A stretch of DNA of 64,000 bases from Nitrospirota bacterium (lineage in GTDB: Bacteria; Nitrospirota; Thermodesulfovibrionia; Thermodesulfovibrionales; UBA9159): NCBI GenBank assembly GCA_023475105.1, contig JAMCWJ010000050.1:1-64000 (forward strand). The letters are read 5' to 3'. The position numbers were made by a program, and so were the translations under genes. Within the stretch, counting starts at the first letter, position 1. Every line of letters begins with the position of its first letter. The notes below the pieces were generated by a model that was given only the letters and a program-made list of their open reading frames with translations, searched no databases and was not told the origin of the DNA. Positions 4,018 through 25,047 of the stretch are shown here, piece by piece.

Positions 4018-4031
4018 TCTATCCAATGATA

Positions 4032-5075
4032 ATGAAGTATTATGACTCACAAAAAATTAAGAAGCTGATTACAGATATCGCTAAAGGGGCCGGGGTCCCG
4101 GAGAGAGACGCTCTCATCCTTTCCGATGCGTTAGTCGAGGCAGATGTCCATGGAACATATACCCATGGGATTTCCAGGGTCAATATCTACATCCGCCGCA
4201 TACAGAGAGGATTGACAAATCCCCGGGCTGATATCACCGTTGAGAGAAGACGCGGCTCAGTAATAGCCGTTGATGCGGGGAATGGACTGGGACATGTTCA
4301 AGCTTATAAAGTTCTTGAGTTGCTGATACCCATAGCCAAATCCACGGGTATCGCGGCGGCGACTATCAGAAATTCGCAGCACTTCGGCGCGCTCTCTTAT
4401 TACTGCAACAAGGCTGCCGACAAAGATATGATCTTATTTGCCACGACCAACGCGGAGCCGGCCATGGCCCCTGAAGGAGGATATCAGGCATATTTCGGAA
4501 CGAATCCGATCGCAGTCTCCATCCCCACCGGAAAGGGGTACCATATCAAAATTGATCTCTCCACTTCGGTTGTCGCCCGCGGCAACATCATTGCCGCTTC
4601 GAAAGAGGGAAAGGAGATCCCCCCCGGCTGGGCTTTAGATCCGGACGGCAATCCGACAGTCGATGTCGAGAAGGCTCTGGCCGGAACTGTTCTCACTATG
4701 GCAGGCCATAAGGGATACGCTCTTGCCTTGATGGTTGAGGTCTTCTCCGGAGTCCTCTCCGGCGCCGCCGTGGGCTCCTCTATTGGTTCAATGTATAAGA
4801 ACCTCGACAGGAAACAAGACCTGGGACACTTCTTCTGTCTCATGGATATCGACGCCTTTATGGATCTCCCGGTTTTCAGGAAACGGATCGATGCGATGAT
4901 CGATGAGATCAAAGCCTGCAAGAAGCGGCCCGGGATTGAGGAAATATTGATTCCGGGTGAGCGTTCTTTCAGAATCGCAAATAAGAATCGGGAAAGAGGG
5001 ATCCCTATCAGCAATGCAACGCTGAAGGAGCTGAGAGCCTTGTGCGAGCAATACAACATCCCTTTCGCTTTATAA
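4032..5075 (+). CDS. LDH2/MDH2-family 2-hydroxyacid dehydrogenase (malate/sulfolactate type)
   Basis: A 347-residue NAD(P)-dependent oxidoreductase of the malate/L-lactate dehydrogenase 2 family, which is unrelated to classical LDH. Family motifs are seen: EADVHGTYTHGISR near the N-terminus, a conserved NSQHFGAL histidine segment, DLSTSVVARG, and GHKGYALALMVEV in the C-terminal half. Characterised relatives act on malate, ureidoglycolate, diketogulonate or (R)-sulfolactate (ComC). The neighbouring SauS-like dehydrogenase and TauE exporter make sulfolactate attractive, but sulfopyruvate decarboxylase genes are not visible. ATG 4026 is an alternative start in the same frame; 4032 is preferred because the sigma-54 start site falls near 4028. 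An ordinary malate dehydrogenase is the main alternative. Confidence 0.85.
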   Translation: MKYYDSQKIKKLITDIAKGAGVPERDALILSDALVEADVHGTYTHGISRVNIYIRRIQRGLTNPRADITVERRRGSVIAVDAGNGLGHVQAYKVLELLIPIAKSTGIAAATIRNSQHFGALSYYCNKAADKDMILFATTNAEPAMAPEGGYQAYFGTNPIAVSIPTGKGYHIKIDLSTSVVARGNIIAASKEGKEIPPGWALDPDGNPTVDVEKALAGTVLTMAGHKGYALALMVEVFSGVLSGAAVGSSIGSMYKNLDRKQDLGHFFCLMDIDAFMDLPVFRKRIDAMIDEIKACKKRPGIEEILIPGERSFRIANKNRERGIPISNATLKELRALCEQYNIPFAL

Positions 5076-5108
5076 AGAACTGAGCGGCCGAGGAGGCGAC
5101 GCGACGAG

Positions 5109-6512
5109 ATGACCAATCGGGGTTTCACCGTATCAATACCGATGTTACTTGCCTTCACACTATTTGTTCTTCCGGCCCCTGAGGGTCTTTCCCCACAGGC
5201 ATGGAAACTATTCGGGATTTTTGCAGGAACCATCCTGCTCCTCATGCTGCAGGGCCTGCCTGAACCGAGCGCCGTCCTGGTCGGAGTCACCGCCGCCGGT
5301 CTGCTGGTCGTGCCTCTGGGAGATATTCTGGTCGGCTTCACCGACCAGATAGTCTGGCTGACTGTTGTGGCCATCATTATGAGCATCGGCTTCAGCAAGA
5401 GCGGGCTCTCCAGACGAATCGGCTTCCTGATGATCGGGGCCTTCGGCAAGAGCAGTTTGAGATTGGGATACGTATTCAGTTTTATGGACCTGCTTCTGGC
5501 AACGTTCGTTCCTACTGCGCCGGCAAGGACAGGCGGCCTCGTTTATCCCATGTGTCATGGCGTCCTTGATGCCGTGAATTCTACGCCGCGCGAAAATCCC
5601 CGCAGACTCGGCTCCTATCTGACGGTGCTTCTTTACATGGTCAGCATGACTACCGGCAGTATATTCATGACAGGCATGGCTCCAAACCTGTTGAATGCTA
5701 AACTCGCCTCCCAGATCATGGGTCTCCAGATCAGTTGGCCTCTGTGGACTATCGGGGCCGCACCGAGTTTTATCGTCTTTCTCCTCATTCCCGTGGTGGC
5801 ATACAGGCTATACCCCCCGGAGATGCACTCCCTCGAACATATTCGCCGGGCAGCCAGGATTGAACTCACGGCAATGGGACCGATGCACTGGAAGGAAATT
5901 GTGGTGGCGGCAACCTTTTTGACGGCCTTGATCCTCTGGGCGACCAACGGCATGACAAGAATGAATATCACTATCGTGGCCTTCCTGTGCACCGTTATCC
6001 TGTTGCTGTGCAATGTAATCCAGTGGGAAGATATCGCGGAGAGCAAAGAGGCCTGGTCGACACTGGTCTGGTTTGGGGGCATTATAGGCCTCTCATCTGC
6101 GCTCGATAAATTGGGGTTCTTTACGTGGTTCACTGTTCTCCTGAAGAGCGCCCTTCCACTGGGGGGTCTCGGCCACTTTCCATCACTGCTGATCGTCGCC
6201 CTCCTTGCGGTTATTCCGCATTACTTGTTCCCGTCTTTGACCGTATATGTGGCGACCTTTTCACCGGTCCTGTTCGGTTTCATTGTTGCGGCCGATATCC
6301 CTCATTATCCGGCAGTGCTTTTGGCGTGCTATTTAATGGTCATTTCATCCACTTTGACTCACTACGGCAATGGTTTAGGTCCCTTGCTTGTTGCAACAGG
6401 GTATGTTGATAAAAGAATCCTGTGGAGATTGGGGCTCGTGGTAACGGTTCTGGCAGCAGCGATTTATTTGACCGTCGGGCTTCTCTATTGGAAATTGATC
6501 GGCATTTACTAA
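5109..6512 (+). CDS. DASS (SLC13) family anion transporter
   Basis: A 467-residue inner-membrane protein with about 11-12 hydrophobic segments. It has the two-fold repeat layout of divalent anion:sodium symporters, including the FVPTAPARTGGLVYP and VIPHYLFPSLTVYVATFSP hairpin-like regions that correspond to the paired substrate loops. Family members import dicarboxylates, sulfate or related organic anions, with sodium or by exchange. It has an AGGAGG ribosome site and follows the LDH2-family gene by 33 nt, so the two are probably co-transcribed from the promoter at 4002. In this setting it probably imports the carboxylate or sulfonate that the dehydrogenases consume. Sodium dependence and substrate cannot be read from the sequence. 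Confidence 0.85.
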   Translation: MTNRGFTVSIPMLLAFTLFVLPAPEGLSPQAWKLFGIFAGTILLLMLQGLPEPSAVLVGVTAAGLLVVPLGDILVGFTDQIVWLTVVAIIMSIGFSKSGLSRRIGFLMIGAFGKSSLRLGYVFSFMDLLLATFVPTAPARTGGLVYPMCHGVLDAVNSTPRENPRRLGSYLTVLLYMVSMTTGSIFMTGMAPNLLNAKLASQIMGLQISWPLWTIGAAPSFIVFLLIPVVAYRLYPPEMHSLEHIRRAARIELTAMGPMHWKEIVVAATFLTALILWATNGMTRMNITIVAFLCTVILLLCNVIQWEDIAESKEAWSTLVWFGGIIGLSSALDKLGFFTWFTVLLKSALPLGGLGHFPSLLIVALLAVIPHYLFPSLTVYVATFSPVLFGFIVAADIPHYPAVLLACYLMVISSTLTHYGNGLGPLLVATGYVDKRILWRLGLVVTVLAAAIYLTVGLLYWKLIGIY

Positions 6513-6624
6513 AAGGATTAAGAGAGTCCAGAGCAGTTCCCGGCTATCCTGCAGTCATGCAGGAGGCTCTATGTGGAGGAGATGTGGTGTGGCATCGATT
6601 GTCTCAACTGACAGTGGAGTTTGC

Positions 6625-7347
6625 ATGACTTTGTTCAGTGTTATACTTGCCAGTATCGCGTTCTTTGGAGGGGTCCTCAAGAGCGGGTTCGGAATGGGCG
6701 GCATCTTCCTTACACCGGTCCTCGCGCTGGTAACCGATCCAAAGGAAGCAGTTGCACTCGTGGCCCCCATGATGCTCTTTACGGACATAACCGCTCTTTA
6801 CCAATACCGGTACCGATGGGATATCAAATATATTGCGGCATTACTACCTGCCTGCCTTATAGGGGCGGTCTCAGGAGCCTTTCTTTTAAATTGGTTTACC
6901 CCCCCCACCGTGCGGCGTACGATCGGAATCATCGCCCTCGTGTACATGGGGAATGAACTGTTCAGAAAGATGCTCTTCCGTCCATCTCATACGCCGAATC
7001 CCCTATGGGGCCCCATCACGGGTATAGTAAGCGGTGTTGCCACATCCCTAGCGAATGCCGGTGGGGTCTTTCTTATCGCCTATCTCGCGAGACGCCTTCA
7101 GAAGCTCTACCTTATGGGAACCCTCGTCGTGTTATACTTTTTCTTCAGTCTGGTGAAGGTCGTGATGTTCACAGGCTTCGGTATATTAACGCAGCAGTTG
7201 TGGCTTACAGAGCTCTATCTCATACCGTTGATGTTCATCGGCGGCATGACGGGCAATTGGATAAACAAACGACTGCCTGAAATTTATTTCAAGTGGTTCG
7301 TTTTTGTCCTCGTCATAGGCGCCTGCATTAAACTTGCATTTTTCTGA
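6625..7347 (+). CDS. TauE/SafE family membrane exporter
   Basis: A 240-residue membrane protein with about eight hydrophobic segments and the tandem TauE/SafE (DUF81) halves; GGVLKSGFGMGGIFLTP is the typical first loop. The chosen start, ATG 6625, follows GGAG by 6 nt; an in-frame ATG at 6571 lacks a good ribosome site. The family includes proteins proposed to export sulfite or sulfoacetate in sulfonate-degrading bacteria, as well as many uncharacterised anion carriers. It lies 112 nt after the DASS gene on the same strand, as the last intact gene of the island. Sulfite export is suggested only by this context. Confidence 0.85.
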   Translation: MTLFSVILASIAFFGGVLKSGFGMGGIFLTPVLALVTDPKEAVALVAPMMLFTDITALYQYRYRWDIKYIAALLPACLIGAVSGAFLLNWFTPPTVRRTIGIIALVYMGNELFRKMLFRPSHTPNPLWGPITGIVSGVATSLANAGGVFLIAYLARRLQKLYLMGTLVVLYFFFSLVKVVMFTGFGILTQQLWLTELYLIPLMFIGGMTGNWINKRLPEIYFKWFVFVLVIGACIKLAFF

Positions 7348-7380
7348 CGGATGCGCTTTCTTTCGACCTCATTAGTAAGT

Positions 7381-7677
7381 ATGGAACTTCGGGATAACTT
7401 TCACCGTATCATAGACTACCTGCGCATCTCCGTCACCGACCGATGCAACCTCAGATGTGTCTACTGCATGCCTGCCGGCGGTGTCAGGCCCGCGGAGCAC
7501 AAGGAGATAAATAAGAAGTTAGATGCAAAAAGGCGAAACCGTCAACAAGTGGATTCTGCCGCTCTGGAACTAAGCGCAATTAATGGACAATTTATCAGGA
7601 GATTTCTCTTCCAATCCGCCCGGCTTTTTGATAAAATGGTTGTGCTGACTTTTTCTTTTGATGGGGAGAGACCATGA
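7381..7677 (+). pseudogene. moaA: moaA 5' fragment (truncated radical-SAM GTP 3',8-cyclase)
   Basis: The first 43 codons, from ATG 7381 to about 7509, read as the N-terminus of MoaA: RDNF then [20 protein letters not shown], with the C22-x3-C26-x2-C29 radical-SAM cluster motif, and an HKEI segment. After that the frame continues with 55 residues that do not look like MoaA, and stops at 7677. Intact MoaA is about 320-330 residues, so roughly 85 percent is missing. The break coincides with the edge of the accessory island. The fragment cannot bind GTP or the second Fe-S cluster. A functional moaA must be elsewhere if the molybdoenzyme at 33.5 kb is used. Confidence 0.75.
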
Positions 7678-8328: not shown

Positions 8329-9552
8329 ATGAAGAGAATGTTTCGATGGACTCTCTTGATTACCGTCTTTTTTTCATCGTATTTCATCCTTCCTGCTGCC
8401 GAATCGGCTGAACCTCTGAAGATCACCGGATCATCACAGTTCCTGTGGGGAGACGACTGGCTGGGAGACAGCCAGTCGATCCTCGCCCAATACCTGAGGG
8501 TCAGTTACAATCCGCAAGGAGAAAGGTACTCGATAACCGGCTACGGAAGGATATGGAAGGGTTTCGGAGACACCACGATCAGGGACAACGACTTCCTGGG
8601 AAGACTGTACTACCTCTTCCTGGATTATCGTCCCAGCGACAAAACCAGTCTGCGGCTCGGCAGACAGTATGTGAACTTGAGCGCGGGCTCGGCTCTCCTG
8701 GACGGTCTGACTCTCAATGCGCACAGCGTCGGTCCTGTGGGCATCACTGCCGCGGTGGGACGGGAAATAAAGTACTCCCTCGATGCGGAGTATTCGAGTT
8801 TCAGCAGCACGTTCTGGGGAATCGACGTGCATCTCGAAAATGTACGCTCGCTGCAGCTCGGGGCGAGTTACGTGAGGAGGTATGACGAATGGATGCGGGC
8901 AAGGGAAGAGGTGGGCGTAAACTTCAGGTACTTCTATAAATTCCTCAGTCCCTATGCAGAAGCCAGATACGACATACTTTCGAAGGCAACGGACGAAGCG
9001 ACCGTCGGCATCGATGTCTTCCCGATGAGCAACCTGATGCTCAAGGCCGAGTTCTATCAGTCATATCCCACATTCTTCTCGACGTCCATTTACAGCGTCT
9101 TCGCAGTCGACAGGTATCGCGAATACCTGGTGCGCGCCGACTACAGCCTGGACCAACTTCCGGTAACAGTCTATGCGAGCTATGCAAAGCAGTCCTATGA
9201 GGAAGAAGCGAACACCGACAACTACATCCTCGGCGCAAGGGTCTTTCCGATAAAGAACCTGGTCGTCAATGCCTCTGTCGATTACCGCACGGGGTACGGA
9301 GGAAATCTGTGGGGCTTCGAGATCTACGGCAATTACAAGATCAACAACAAGTTCGTCGTCGCAGCAGGCATCCAGTACGACGCTTACCGGAGACCGGACA
9401 ACGACAATAACGGGAACGCGCAGCGCTATTGGCTCGGCGGGCAGTGGGTCGTGAACAAGAACGTCTCCGTCGACGCCAGGATCGAAGACAACGTCAACGA
9501 AAACTTCGACCACAGGCCTCTCGGAAGAGTCGCGGTAAACTGGACCATATAG
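8329..9552 (+). CDS. outer-membrane beta-barrel porin of a porin-cytochrome conduit
   Basis: A 407-residue protein with a signal peptide (about residues 1-27, ending AESAE). Its body consists of alternating aromatic/polar beta strands with short turns, typical of an outer-membrane barrel, and the C-terminus is strand-like (VAVNWTI). No haem motifs are present. It is followed 15 nt later by a nine-haem cytochrome and then a decahaem lipoprotein. That is the porin/periplasmic/surface triad of MtrB-MtrA-MtrC and Geobacter PCC systems, where the barrel sheathes the periplasmic cytochrome. Sequence identity to MtrB is not obvious, so the role rests on topology and context. The ribosome site is AAGGAGGG. 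Confidence 0.8.
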   Translation: MKRMFRWTLLITVFFSSYFILPAAESAEPLKITGSSQFLWGDDWLGDSQSILAQYLRVSYNPQGERYSITGYGRIWKGFGDTTIRDNDFLGRLYYLFLDYRPSDKTSLRLGRQYVNLSAGSALLDGLTLNAHSVGPVGITAAVGREIKYSLDAEYSSFSSTFWGIDVHLENVRSLQLGASYVRRYDEWMRAREEVGVNFRYFYKFLSPYAEARYDILSKATDEATVGIDVFPMSNLMLKAEFYQSYPTFFSTSIYSVFAVDRYREYLVRADYSLDQLPVTVYASYAKQSYEEEANTDNYILGARVFPIKNLVVNASVDYRTGYGGNLWGFEIYGNYKINNKFVVAAGIQYDAYRRPDNDNNGNAQRYWLGGQWVVNKNVSVDARIEDNVNENFDHRPLGRVAVNWTI

Positions 9553-9567
9553 AGAAAGGAGGGTAGA

Positions 9568-10329
9568 GTGTTAAGAAAAGCAAATATATTGATCGTATTT
9601 ATTTTTGTTCTTTCGGTCCCTGCGGCCTGGTCGCTCACCCCGCATCAGGACTATGCGACGATGGAGATAAAGGACTGCAATTCCTGCCATGACTCCAGCG
9701 GGGTCGCGCAGAACCACAGCACCTTCTGGACGAAGGAGCACAGACTCTACGCGGAGAAATATCCGAACAATTGCAAGGATTGCCACCAGCAGTCTTTTTG
9801 TTTAGATTGTCACACGGGAGGCGGTATCGACCGCGACCTCCATGTTTCGAATTCCGGGGTCGACTACATGCCGAAATCCCACCGGACGGACTGGAGAGAG
9901 ATCCATCCGATAAAGGCAAAGGACGATCCCAGGTCATGCTACCGCTGTCATGACGCGCGACGGTTCTGCAATGAATGCCATAGCAAGTTCAGGCCTGAAC
10001 TCCTCGAGCTCCAGTCGCACCGCAGACAATTCAGGGACATCCAGCTCTCATCCATAGGTCCGAGTCACGCGGGATTTTCCCCTGCGGACTGCAAAAACTG
10101 CCACGTACAGGGCTTTCTTCCGACCACCCAGTGGTCTGCAGATCATGCGAGGGAGGCGCGGAGAAACCTCAACGCGTGCCAGACCTGCCATCCCGACGGA
10201 GATGTCTGCATGAAGTGCCACAGTGCGGTGACCGGTCTCAGGGTGAGCCCCCATCCGAGGAACTGGAACAGCATCAAGGGAAGACTCGAACGGGCAAGCG
10301 GTAACAAGACGTGCGTGAAATGCCACTGA
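9568..10329 (+). CDS. periplasmic nonahaem c-type cytochrome (MtrA-like role)
   Basis: A 253-residue secreted protein starting with GTG 9568 after an AGGAGG site. A signal peptide of about 22 residues ends in AWS. Nine CxxCH haem-binding motifs are visible: CNSCH, CKDCH, CLDCH, CYRCH, CNECH, CKNCH, CQTCH, CMKCH and a C-terminal CVKCH. MtrA has ten haems and Geobacter OmaB eight, so this is a near relative in design rather than a standard family member. It should sit inside or beneath the barrel encoded upstream and carry electrons across the outer membrane to the decahaem lipoprotein encoded 14 nt downstream. The final haem motif is the last five residues of the protein. Confidence 0.85.
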   Translation: MLRKANILIVFIFVLSVPAAWSLTPHQDYATMEIKDCNSCHDSSGVAQNHSTFWTKEHRLYAEKYPNNCKDCHQQSFCLDCHTGGGIDRDLHVSNSGVDYMPKSHRTDWREIHPIKAKDDPRSCYRCHDARRFCNECHSKFRPELLELQSHRRQFRDIQLSSIGPSHAGFSPADCKNCHVQGFLPTTQWSADHAREARRNLNACQTCHPDGDVCMKCHSAVTGLRVSPHPRNWNSIKGRLERASGNKTCVKCH

Positions 10330-10343
10330 GAAGGAGGATAACA

Positions 10344-12542
10344 ATGACTGACAAGCTATACAACATTCTTGTTTTGCTTATGACCGGCCTGGCGACGGCA
10401 GGGCTGATCTGCGGCTGCGGGAGCAGCAACAAGGAAGGGGCGAACGTCATATCGACGATACCCCCGAGCACGGACGGGAATCTCCAGTCGCAGATTACTG
10501 CGGTGACGGTCGGCAGTCCGCCGGTCGTCACCTTCACCCTTTACGACGAAATCGGCAATCCTCTGGAGCCGACCGCCTTTGTCGCAAACGGCGGCACCCT
10601 CAGGTTCACGATTGCGGAGATTCAGTCCGATGGAAATTACAAGAACTACATCCTGAACTCTGTGGGACAGCCGACGTTCGACTCGGGCGGCGTCTTTGCG
10701 ACGGTGAGACCGGGTGTCTACACGTACACCTTCAAGACAGACATAACGGCCAGCAATATGTTCGATCCGACCCGCACCCATACGGTAGCGGCCCAGATAG
10801 AGAGGAACATCACCTCGATAGTCGGCAAGGGCTACCAGCAGGCGGTCAACCCCTACCTCGATTTCAGGCCGGACGGCCAGCCCGTGACCATAACCCGTGA
10901 GGTTGTCGCGATCTCGAACTGCAACGAATGCCATGGCAATCTCGGGCTCCATGGCGGCGGCAGGAGGGAAGTCGCCCTCTGCATCCTCTGCCATAACCCG
11001 GGAGTGATCGACCCCGATACCGGTAATTCCATCGACTTTAAGAACCTCATCCACAAGATCCACTATGGAGACGCGCTCCCGAGCAATGTTGCGGGGGGCA
11101 ATTTCACGATCATAGGATTCCAGGGGAGCGTGAACAGCTACGGCGATGTGACGTACCCGTTCATTTCGGGCGACAATTCGATCAGCGGAACGCCGGTCAA
11201 GTGCGTGAAATGCCATCGGCCGGGCAAAGACCTTGCGGGTCGCGACTTCGGCAAAGACGTTGATAAATACAAAACAGCTCCTACGAGGGAAAAATGCACC
11301 ACCTGCCATGACCTGACCACCTTCGACGGAAGCACGACGATCGTGGTGAAGAACGTCACGACGCCGATCACCGTCCCGGCCGTGCCCCACACCGGAGGTC
11401 CTCAGTCTAGCGACAGCGCCTGTGGAGGGTGCCATCCGTCGACAGGCTCCGAGTTCGGCCAGTCGATCACGGGCGCGCATACCGTTGTAGAAGAGTCGTC
11501 GGTCTTTACAGGCATCAATTTCAAGATTCTCGCGGTAGCCAACGCCACTCCGGGGAACAAGGCCACGGTAACCTTCAAAGTTACCGACAACAGCGGCGGC
11601 GTGATCTCCCCCGCTTCTCCTTCGAGCTTCAGCCTGAAACTCGGTTATCCCACAGTGGATTACAGGAACAATCTCATGGAGAACTACGGGCAGCCGTTGT
11701 CACAGTCTCTGGCTTCGGCTACGGCCAACGGCGATGGCAGCTTCACCATCACGTTCTCGAAAGCGATACCCGCAAATGCTGCCGGAGTCGCGGTTGTCGG
11801 GATAGAGGGCAGGAGACCCTACACGATATCGTCGATCCATAAGGGCACCAAGAGCGTCAACATCGGCGGCCAGGCGATGCAATTCTATGTCGACCTCGCA
11901 ACAGGATCCCAGGCGACGGACCCCGGGCTCGAGCGCCGCAGATCGGTCGACGTCAACAAATGCATTGGGTGCCATGAGCGACTCAGCCTCCATGGCGCGA
12001 ACAGGGTGAACAGCATCGAAGAGTGCGTCATCTGCCACAACGCCGACGCGACAGACAAGGGCCAAAGGCCCTCCGATCCGACGACGACGCCTGATGGCCT
12101 GAAGGAGCGTCCGATAGACTTCAAGCAGATGATCCACAAGATCCACACAGGCGATGAACTGAATGTTGAGCCGTATGTGATCTACGGCTTCGGAGGCAGC
12201 GTCAATGACTTCTCAGGCGTCACCTTTCCCCGTGACAGGAGGGACTGCCTGGGGTGCCACATCGACGCGACTCCCAAGACCTTCGGCTTCCCGCTCAAGC
12301 CCGGTGTGATGGGAACCACGGTCGATACCGGCGCGATCCCCAACGACGATTCGGACAATGTCAGGATTCAGCCTATGACCTCTGTCTGTACATCATGCCA
12401 TGACAGCGCCAATACTGCAACCCACGCGGCCGACAAGACAAGCGGAGGAGTCGAGGCATGTCTCACCTGCCATACCTCCGGATTGCTTCTCGGTCCTGAT
12501 TTCGCCCATTTCGGAGACCACAGGTTCCCTCCGGGCAACTAA
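10344..12542 (+). CDS. OmcA/MtrC-family decahaem c-type cytochrome lipoprotein
   Basis: A 732-residue protein starting at ATG 10344 after AAGGAGG. The signal peptide ends in a lipobox (LICGC), so it should be a lipoprotein. Ten CxxCH motifs occur in two groups of five: CNECH, CILCH, CVKCH, CTTCH, CGGCH, then CIGCH, CVICH, CLGCH, CTSCH, CLTCH. The beta-rich segments before each group fit the domain I/II/III/IV plan of MtrC and OmcA. Repeated HKIH segments follow the second haem of each group. Surface members of this family pass electrons to minerals, other solids or partner cells. With the upstream barrel and nonahaem cytochrome it forms a complete trans-outer-membrane conduit. The operon ends at a strong terminator. 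Confidence 0.92.
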   Translation: MTDKLYNILVLLMTGLATAGLICGCGSSNKEGANVISTIPPSTDGNLQSQITAVTVGSPPVVTFTLYDEIGNPLEPTAFVANGGTLRFTIAEIQSDGNYKNYILNSVGQPTFDSGGVFATVRPGVYTYTFKTDITASNMFDPTRTHTVAAQIERNITSIVGKGYQQAVNPYLDFRPDGQPVTITREVVAISNCNECHGNLGLHGGGRREVALCILCHNPGVIDPDTGNSIDFKNLIHKIHYGDALPSNVAGGNFTIIGFQGSVNSYGDVTYPFISGDNSISGTPVKCVKCHRPGKDLAGRDFGKDVDKYKTAPTREKCTTCHDLTTFDGSTTIVVKNVTTPITVPAVPHTGGPQSSDSACGGCHPSTGSEFGQSITGAHTVVEESSVFTGINFKILAVANATPGNKATVTFKVTDNSGGVISPASPSSFSLKLGYPTVDYRNNLMENYGQPLSQSLASATANGDGSFTITFSKAIPANAAGVAVVGIEGRRPYTISSIHKGTKSVNIGGQAMQFYVDLATGSQATDPGLERRRSVDVNKCIGCHERLSLHGANRVNSIEECVICHNADATDKGQRPSDPTTTPDGLKERPIDFKQMIHKIHTGDELNVEPYVIYGFGGSVNDFSGVTFPRDRRDCLGCHIDATPKTFGFPLKPGVMGTTVDTGAIPNDDSDNVRIQPMTSVCTSCHDSANTATHAADKTSGGVEACLTCHTSGLLLGPDFAHFGDHRFPPGN

Positions 12543-12566: not shown

Positions 12567-12597
12567 AAAGGCCCCGGTTCTCCGGGGCCTTTTTTTT
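12567..12597 (+). terminator. rho-independent terminator of the porin-cytochrome operon
   Basis: The hairpin has a perfect 9-bp stem (AGGCCCCGG/CCGGGGCCT) with a TTCT loop and is followed by seven more T. It begins 25 nt after the decahaem cytochrome stop codon. Confidence 0.95.
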
Positions 12598-14882: not shown

Positions 14883-16028
14883 ATGAAGAAAAGTTTTGCT
14901 GTTACGTTGGTTCTCGTGTTTGCTGTTCTGTGCTACACCGCATTATTTGTAGACCTCGGTTCTGTAAAGGCTGCCGGCGCTCCCGGATATGGAGGTGAAA
15001 AGGCGGCTCCTGCGGCGGCAAAGGAAGCGGCTCCTGCGGTCGTAGCGAAAGTGGAATTGTCCAAGAAGCCGATCACTTTTGACGCTGTCGCTTACATTGC
15101 AGGGCACGGCGGTCATCTGGCGATCATCGACATGAGGACGATGAAGGCGCCTACGGATGTCGAAAAAGATAGGATCGTTCTCGCGGAGGCCGGTTCCGAA
15201 ATGGAAGGCAAGATCGCCGGCATGAGCTTCGAAAAGGTCGTAAAGGCCGGTGGCACCCACGGCCAGGCCCTTGTTTCTGAAAAAGGCAAGAAAGTCCTTG
15301 TTGCGGGCACCCTTGACGGCGACGTGTACAAGGTCGACCTCGCCACAGGGAAAAAGGAAGGACCCTTCAAGGTCGGCGAGAAGTTCTGCGGCGCCATCGT
15401 AGGTCCCGACGGCAACATCTATTTTGAAGACATGGCCAACGGCAACGTCTACATTTGGGACTCGAACAAGTTGAAGACTGTGGACAAGATGCCCGTAGGC
15501 AAGGCGGTATGCGGCATCCAGTGGACGAAAAACAAGAAGAAGGCCTATATTACCGACATGCCGACCGGCGTGGTATATGTGTATGACTGGAAGACAAAGA
15601 AGAAGATAAAGGAGATATCGAGCCCTGAGATGACATTTATCCACCAGGCAAGAATGACCCCTGACGGCAAACAGCTCTGGGTGAGCGCTCCGAACGAGTT
15701 CGATCCTGGTCTGAAGCCGGGCACACACAAGAGCCAGGTCATTATCATCGACACGGCTAAGGACAAGATCATGAAGCGCATAGTCCTGCCGGACAATGTA
15801 AGACCCCATGACTTCGCCTTCACAAAAGACGGAAAGTATGCGTTCCTGTCATCCAGGACCTACGGTGATGACAGCACGCTGAACGTCATGGATATGAAGA
15901 ATTACAACATCGTCGAGAACGTGTCCGCCTGCGCGAGCTGCCACAAGAGCGTCGGCGTTCAGGTAAAGATTGACAAGGGTTCGCCGCTTCTCTGCGGCAT
16001 AGAAATCGACTGGCATCCGGGAAAATAG
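14883..16028 (+). CDS. secreted beta-propeller protein with a single C-terminal haem motif
   Basis: A 381-residue exported protein with a signal peptide of about 32 residues. An alanine-rich linker follows, then a YVTN/NirF-like seven-bladed beta-propeller with repeated motifs such as DGDVYKVDLATGK, NGNVYIWD and GVVYVYDWKTKK. One CxxCH (CASCH) near residue 352 suggests covalent binding of one c-type haem after the propeller. The family recalls cytochrome cd1-type and hydrazine/nitrite-related propellers, but no d1-haem genes are nearby. It may be a periplasmic redox or metal-binding protein. It has its own promoter and terminator, and precedes the ABC/NosL cluster by about 200 nt. Confidence 0.75.
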   Translation: MKKSFAVTLVLVFAVLCYTALFVDLGSVKAAGAPGYGGEKAAPAAAKEAAPAVVAKVELSKKPITFDAVAYIAGHGGHLAIIDMRTMKAPTDVEKDRIVLAEAGSEMEGKIAGMSFEKVVKAGGTHGQALVSEKGKKVLVAGTLDGDVYKVDLATGKKEGPFKVGEKFCGAIVGPDGNIYFEDMANGNVYIWDSNKLKTVDKMPVGKAVCGIQWTKNKKKAYITDMPTGVVYVYDWKTKKKIKEISSPEMTFIHQARMTPDGKQLWVSAPNEFDPGLKPGTHKSQVIIIDTAKDKIMKRIVLPDNVRPHDFAFTKDGKYAFLSSRTYGDDSTLNVMDMKNYNIVENVSACASCHKSVGVQVKIDKGSPLLCGIEIDWHPGK

Positions 16029-24403: not shown

Positions 24404-24626
24404 TAAAGTTTCGTATTCCCGCGCCATGCCCTCATCAATCTTATCGCTTAAAAGGATTGGAGGGATGCTTTGTCCACCTTTGCACGGCGATAGAGTATCA
24501 TTGCACAACAACGGGAGAAAAGCCAACAGGTAGTGGTGCGTTTGAGCGGCCCGAGTCCTCATCAGGCGGACAGACCGCGTCGGGGTCTGATGAGAAAGCA
24601 GGTTACGTTAACGAAGCTTTTTGGGA

Positions 24627-24652
24627 AATGCAGGCCCGTTCGGGCCTGCATT
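24627..24652 (-). terminator. strong hairpin downstream of the cold-shock gene
   Basis: A perfect 12-bp inverted repeat, AATGCAGGCCCG/CGGGCCTGCATT, with a 2-base centre, 10 bases after the csp stop codon. On the csp strand the T run is short (ATTT), so it may end transcription weakly or protect the 3' end. Confidence 0.65.
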
Positions 24653-24661
24653 AGTATTGGC

Positions 24662-24862
24662 CTAGACTTTTACTACGTTTACCGCTTTCGGACCCTTCGG
24701 GCCGTCCACGATCTCGAAGCTCACTGCCTGCCCTTCGGACAGGGATTTGAATCCATTGTCCTGGATGGCAGTATAGTGGACGAACACGTCTCCGCCGTCT
24801 TCCTTGGTAATGAATCCGAAGCCCTTGGACTCATTGAACCATTTAACGGTCCCCTTCTCCAT
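24662..24862 (-). CDS. cold-shock domain protein (CspA family)
   Basis: A 66-residue single cold-shock domain that binds single-stranded RNA and DNA. RNP1 (KGFGFI) and RNP2 (VFVHY) are intact, with the usual [13 protein letters not shown] opening and the [11 protein letters not shown] end. Length is standard. The start has an AAGGAGGTG site. The leader is long and structured (see 24863-25047), as in cold-inducible csp genes. Whether this copy is cold induced cannot be read from the protein. Confidence 0.97.
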
Positions 24863-25047
24863 GCACTACACCTCCTTGCTGAAAAAATTCTTCAAAGCGT
24901 AGAACCTTTGAAGTACTAATGAAGATTACGGAATCCGCCATAAAAAAAGCCGCAAAGTCCAAAGTCTTTGCGGCTATATTCGGCGATATACGACAAAAAC
25001 TTCCGAAACTTCATTCTTACTATTACATAAAATCCGAAAAAGGTCAA
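24863..25047 (-). promoter_or_regulatory. csp promoter and about 150-nt leader with two terminator-like hairpins
   Basis: On the minus strand a promoter reads TTGACC at 25047-25042, 16 bp, then TAATAG at 25025-25020. The start site near 25013 gives a leader of about 150 nt. It contains a 10-bp stem (AGCCGCAAAG/CTTTGCGGCT, about 24947-24975) followed by a run of seven T. It also contains an 8-bp stem (CTTCAAAG/CTTTGAAG, 24890-24913) followed by AATTTTTT. Both look like intrinsic terminators inside the leader. No other minus-strand gene upstream needs them, so they are candidate attenuators or cold-responsive folds. Confidence 0.6.

Follow-up and report, generated by a model that had tools for sequence, protein, structure and literature searches.

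The stretch of DNA analyzed here, which we call the window, covers 64 kb of a 3.28-Mb draft genome (G000), and it carries three adjacent forward-strand genes coding for a barrel, a cytochrome with nine CxxCH motifs and a lipoprotein with ten, just where the preliminary description had placed them (Table 1). Intergenic gaps are 15 bases between the porin and nonahaem genes and 14 bases between the nonahaem and decahaem genes; an AAGGAGG-like ribosome site stands ahead of each gene, and a single GC hairpin followed by T8 closes the run, which bears out the strong ribosome sites and the one terminator claimed earlier. No sigma-70-like promoter was found directly 5' of the three-gene run. Among genomes with a name, close relatives are carried by Nitrospirae MAGs, a Thermodesulfovibrio MAG and Nitrospiraceae bacterium Ngb-4. 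The best start of the decahaem gene is the ATG at 10344, behind GAAGGAGG, the mechanical open reading frame start, a GTG at 10311, being less good; the leader of the product ends in LICG/C, with the lipid-bearing cysteine at residue 25. The porin has no cysteine, and the two cytochromes contain exactly nine and ten CxxCH motifs, with CxxxCH absent from both. Because the rest of the window holds only three other open frames of more than 60 codons with CxxCH, one motif each, the clustering of haem motifs in two genes is far from chance.

Table 1. Features of the conduit locus in the window
Feature	Position	Strand	Remarks
Pcc-type outer-membrane barrel gene, OmbB family	8329..9552	+	407 aa, signal peptide, 22 predicted strands
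Secreted nonahaem c-type cytochrome gene, OmaB family, 9-haem subtype	9568..10329	+	253 aa, GTG start, nine CxxCH, nine conserved distal His
Sixth CxxCH (C175-H179) and distal His167, nonahaem residues 153-190	10024..10137	+	Stretch absent from 8-haem OmaB-type relatives
Decahaem outer-membrane lipoprotein gene, OmcA/MtrC family (TIGR03507)	10344..12542	+	732 aa, 5+5 haems split by a haem-free stretch
Codons of lipid Cys and N-terminal tag CGSSNKEG	10416..10439	+	Also present on Pcc surface cytochromes of other families
Intrinsic terminator	12570..12597	+	Perfect 8-bp GC hairpin GGCCCCGG-TTCT-CCGGGGCC, then T8

Just 5' of the conduit genes, positions 4026-7347 of the forward strand encode a malate/lactate dehydrogenase, a sodium:sulfate-type symporter and a TauE-type exporter, followed at 7351-7677 (forward) by a short open reading frame that is MoaA-like at its start and then loses similarity, an apparent moaA remnant with no Pfam match at 1e-5. 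On the 3' side, a gene at 14883-16028 (forward) encodes a secreted beta-propeller protein with a single C-terminal CASCH, which matches Pfam Cytochrom_D1 (E 1.2e-9); with the model for clade III lactonase-type N2O reductase it reaches 47 bits, below the threshold of 700. An Rfam match to the cspA thermoregulator at 24623-24978 (reverse; 88 bits versus a gathering score of 78) is unexpected for Nitrospirota. The CcdA gene at 51.9 kb, previously offered as support for haem attachment, does code for a DsbD/CcdA-type membrane protein (PF02683), but it lies 39 kb off and carries little weight in that role.

A structural model of the barrel, built from a 17-sequence alignment, has 22 strands (pLDDT 83.6, pTM 0.72); too few strands had been named beforehand as a possible refutation of a conduit, and this number is not too few. 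When the model was searched with Foldseek, outer-membrane barrels were retrieved; the PapC usher came first (TM 0.54 by query), and the remaining matches included porin and TonB-receptor folds. By the standard barrel formula, the backbone radius is approximately 20 Å for 22 strands versus approximately 23.5 Å for 26, and MtrA has a cross-section of about 30 x 35 Å inside the 26-strand MtrB (PMC7198977); a slim cytochrome wire inside a 22-strand barrel is plausible. PDB sequence searches with the porin and with the nonahaem protein, single and profile, gave no meaningful match. The porin profile found Geobacteraceae Pcc porins at E values of 1e-133 to 1e-151. Pcc porins have 18 to 22 strands, their genes come first in their clusters, and the inner cytochromes carry 5 to 14 haems (PMC4245776), a description that the barrel at 8329-9552 fits by both homology and strand number.

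We aligned the nonahaem protein with 16 relatives and found eight invariant further histidines (26, 50, 58, 105, 113, 151, 193 and 229), which, together with H167, match the nine proximal histidines in number. In 8-haem relatives, the sixth CxxCH and the H167 region are missing together. This pattern agrees with a bis-His ligation of each of the nine haems, which would be expected if the protein is a wire rather than an enzyme. Its structure model was poor (pLDDT 47) and was set aside. The nonahaem profile matched both the 8- and the 9-haem Geobacteraceae partners (E 1e-85 to 1e-120), and of the 48 genomes searched from a Geobacteraceae family, 41 have a relative; about ten of these relatives are full nonahaem proteins, and about twenty are 8-haem proteins of approximately 231 aa whose alignments flank residues 153-190. 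Relatives with five haems and about 153 aa are also present in Geobacteraceae. The gene at 9568-10329 thus encodes an OmaB-type periplasmic multihaem homologue directly adjacent to the porin gene.

Every Geobacteraceae cluster that we fetched runs from a porin (approximately 404 aa) through an 8- or 9-haem protein to a multihaem protein, the last with a lipobox in most cases (the L109 copy is broken). Two clusters (L100 and L101) have the textbook 8 + 12 haems, at three loci (L102, L103 and L104) 8-haem and 9-haem clusters lie in tandem, and at two (L099 and L102) a TetR-family gene lies directly 5' of the porin gene, as in the Geobacter arrangement orfR/orfS-omb-oma-omc (PMC4245776). The barrel and nonahaem protein of the window are, by sequence, a Pcc pair of the OmbB/OmaB family, an assignment that rests on these Geobacteraceae clusters, which have the order, haem counts and regulator of the Geobacter system, rather than on the named G. 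sulfurreducens OmbB, OmaB and OmcB sequences. Given this homology, the porin-first order and the occurrence of both 8- and 9-haem forms, the earlier argument that order and haem numbers mark a separate type was mistaken: the Geobacter order is itself porin-first (ombB-omaB-omcB), 8- and 9-haem Pcc pairs both occur in Geobacteraceae, and what had been called a less described type has a core that belongs to the Geobacter Pcc family. Like the Geobacter Pcc clusters (orfR-ombB-omaB-omcB and duplicates), the window combines a homologous barrel of about 400 aa with a periplasmic multihaem protein, porin first, and a multihaem lipoprotein tip bearing the N-terminal tag CGSxxKEG; it differs in having nine haems rather than eight in the inner protein (nine are also found in some Geobacteraceae), an OmcA/MtrC-family decahaem rather than a 12-haem OmcB-type tip, and no TetR gene seen directly upstream of the porin. 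Pcc-like clusters described from Thermodesulfovibrio-related MAGs (PMC6137239) are alike by description, coming from related organisms and comprising a porin with periplasmic and extracellular c-type cytochromes.

Other cassettes were observed among the loci. Five loci from the same bacterial order (L009-L013) hold smaller cassettes that pair a five-haem protein (148-200 aa) with one of five or six haems; in L009, L010 and L013 a distant barrel was seen as well. A Nitrospirae MAG carries tandem Pcc cassettes (L025:1796-11059), one with 8 + 12 haems and the other with 9 + 9, and a second, truncated Pcc porin copy of 313 aa lies 3' of an intact cassette at L027:11558-12499.

The third gene encodes a surface cytochrome of the OmcA/MtrC family: the ten-haem lipoprotein scores 489 bits against TIGR03507 (cut-off, 209), has two MtrC/MtrF domain II/IV matches, and finds MtrF and OmcA in the PDB. 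With its lipobox and ten CxxCH motifs, it is also the adjacent outer-membrane multihaem lipoprotein of a Pcc cluster, though it is not of the OmcB type. Herein lies the unusual point, which the preliminary description missed: an OmcA/MtrC-family tip stands beside a barrel and an inner cytochrome that are not MtrB and MtrA. When 31 near relatives were scored, the TIGR03507 cut-off was passed only by this genome. Our survey for TIGR03507 proteins beside Pcc pairs covered Thermodesulfovibrionia together with a single, evenly sampled order of Desulfobacterota; at E <= 1e-40, relatives of the decahaem were present in 3 of 231 Thermodesulfovibrionia genomes (the window, L026 and L028) and in 2 of 117 genomes of the order sampled around a Geobacteraceae MAG (L117 and L118). 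All five decahaems directly adjoin a Pcc pair, 3' of it in the window, L026, L028 and L117 and 5' in L118, and none of these five close relatives has MtrA or MtrB beside it.

In the reading that we prefer, with a probability of roughly 0.87, the three genes encode a Pcc conduit across the outer membrane, made of an OmbB/OmaB core and an OmcA/MtrC tip where an OmcB-like one would normally stand, and the trans-outer-membrane electron conduit proposed earlier finds support in the sequence. What the sequence provides is the gene content, homology, haem motifs, conserved histidine ligands, modeled strand number and the association of the decahaem with Pcc pairs. The three products would form a complex in which the bis-His nonahaem protein is enclosed by the 22-strand barrel; the nonahaem protein would take electrons from periplasmic carriers and conduct them through the membrane to the decahaem, held by its lipid anchor and presumably exposed at the surface, and the decahaem may in turn exchange electrons with an extracellular partner, be it an Fe(III) or Mn(IV) mineral, another cell or a shuttle. 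The electron path would thus lead from the periplasm through the nonahaem protein in the barrel and the decahaem to the outside. The same anatomy would serve an inward conduit, by which the cell would reduce sulfate or CO2 with electrons taken up from Fe(II), metallic iron, an electrode or a syntrophic partner. A decahaem-carrying relative, the Nitrospirota genome Ngb-4 (L026), is that of the rice-paddy sulfate reducer Ca. Sulfobium mesophilum. Pcc clusters also occur in bacteria that are not metal-oxide reducers, but the characterized Pcc complexes reduce Fe(III) outward (PMC4245776), and because of this, outward transfer is favored by analogy; no sign of an electron-uptake lifestyle was seen in the window, and we consider the inward direction improbable.

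Could the decahaem gene be a mere neighbor, acquired by transfer and not using the barrel pair? Across 28 cassettes, porin and inner-protein similarity co-varied (Mantel r 0.80) and porin and tip similarity hardly did (r 0.11), a pattern that counts toward the preferred reading; the weak porin-tip correlation, like the rarity of the decahaem in its class, would also suit such a neighbor. Yet the invariable placement of the five decahaems next to Pcc pairs in two phyla, despite porin identity of only about 36% between the phyla, speaks against it, as do the short gene gaps, the shared terminator and the Pcc-type N-terminal tag on the tip, and we regard this explanation as very unlikely. Between the window and L117, identity is 46% over 764 aligned positions for the decahaem, 55% for the nonahaem protein and 36% for the porin.

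Highly improbable is a diverged true MtrCAB with an MtrB barrel, an inner MtrA that has lost one haem and an outer MtrC: the decahaem is of the OmcA/MtrC family, 11 of 16 nonahaem relatives have very weak DmsE/MtrA-family matches (best E 0.0012) and 2 of 17 porins a weak MtrB_PioB match (best E 0.0013), but the porin and nonahaem protein come nowhere near the MtrB and MtrA model cut-offs while matching their Geobacteraceae Pcc partners at E < 1e-85, and the barrel has 407 aa and 22 strands versus 26 in MtrB. We accordingly rejected the MtrCAB identity on the barrel, which is not of the MtrB family (TIGR03509/PF11854, 26 strands), and on the inner protein, which has nine haems and scores 14 bits (E 0.019) against the MtrA/DmsE model TIGR03508 (cut-off, 192). 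From the joint MtrB-MtrA-MtrC and Geobacter PCC plan that had been named for the locus, the Pcc barrel and inner cytochrome and the OmcA/MtrC-family tip therefore stand, while the barrel and inner cytochrome have no MtrB or MtrA family match near cut-off.

At and directly after the lipid-bearing cysteine, 24 of 37 tips read C-G/N-S/T-x-x-K-E-G, and 30 of 37 fit a looser form. The decahaems are the informative cases: all three Nitrospirota proteins have it (CGSSNKEG, CNSGNKEG and CGSSTKEG), and their two Desulfobacterota relatives lack it (CGGDDGGA and CSGGGGGG). The N-termini of L026 (CNSGNKEGANQITV) and L030 (CGSGNKEGAAQITV), read by eye, agree at 12 of 14 positions in tips that are otherwise dissimilar, and the window tip scores 27 bits against the L030 tip. 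A genome scan gave 60 sites in fetched loci, some matched sites having no fetched locus, and all 15 sites preceded by a signal-peptide leader (13 that passed the strict filter and 2 at its edge) belong to multihaem proteins; the lipoprotein background comprised 24 leaders, too small for a rate. Because most tagged tips are related to each other, ancestry explains much of the sharing. The solved OmcA chain (4lmh) has GGSDGKDG close to its beginning, so that some of the similarity may simply be typical of surface lipoproteins in general. We therefore treat the tag as a lead rather than a result. It is possible, if rather doubtful, that Pcc conduits accept unrelated surface cytochromes through CGSxxKEG as a docking or surface-export tag, the window tip then being an MtrC-family body with that tag in a working Pcc-Mtr chimera.

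The tip shares its family and its 5 + 5 haems with the Shewanella MtrCAB/OmcA system, in which the barrel and inner cytochrome, unlike those here, are MtrB and MtrA. MtrC carries an extra domain-III disulfide; the window tip has no cysteine beyond its haem motifs and leader, so it lacks this bond. Replacement of the outer lipoprotein in Geobacter conduits has already been described (PMC6148476, PMC4245776), and non-orthologous tip replacement in Desulfuromonadales likewise keeps the inner cytochrome and swaps the outer lipoprotein (PMC6148476), but here the replacement is an OmcA/MtrC-family protein. According to the legend of Fig. 9 in the same paper, some clusters have an extra lipoprotein decahaem 5' of extE, a case that may resemble the present one. 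In Desulfobacterota, mtrC has been found away from mtrAB (PMC12133095), again an OmcA/MtrC-family decahaem apart from mtrAB, although it was assigned there to the Mtr pathway and here lies inside an omb-oma operon. We found no report of an OmcA/MtrC-family replacement in a Pcc cluster in the literature searched; the plan of a Geobacter-type core with an exchanged tip is known, and its combination with a Shewanella MtrC/OmcA-family tip appears to be undescribed.

Mtr and Pcc are regarded as independently evolved conduits (PMC12133095, PMC4245776). If our reading is true, the presence in two phyla of a Pcc core with an OmcA/MtrC tip would imply that the tip is exchangeable between Mtr and Pcc, "Mtr pathway" calls made from an MtrC-family decahaem alone would misassign some genomes, and the separate mtrC genes of Desulfobacterota could have Pcc partners. 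How a surface cytochrome finds its conduit can be tested on a small element, the conserved tag.
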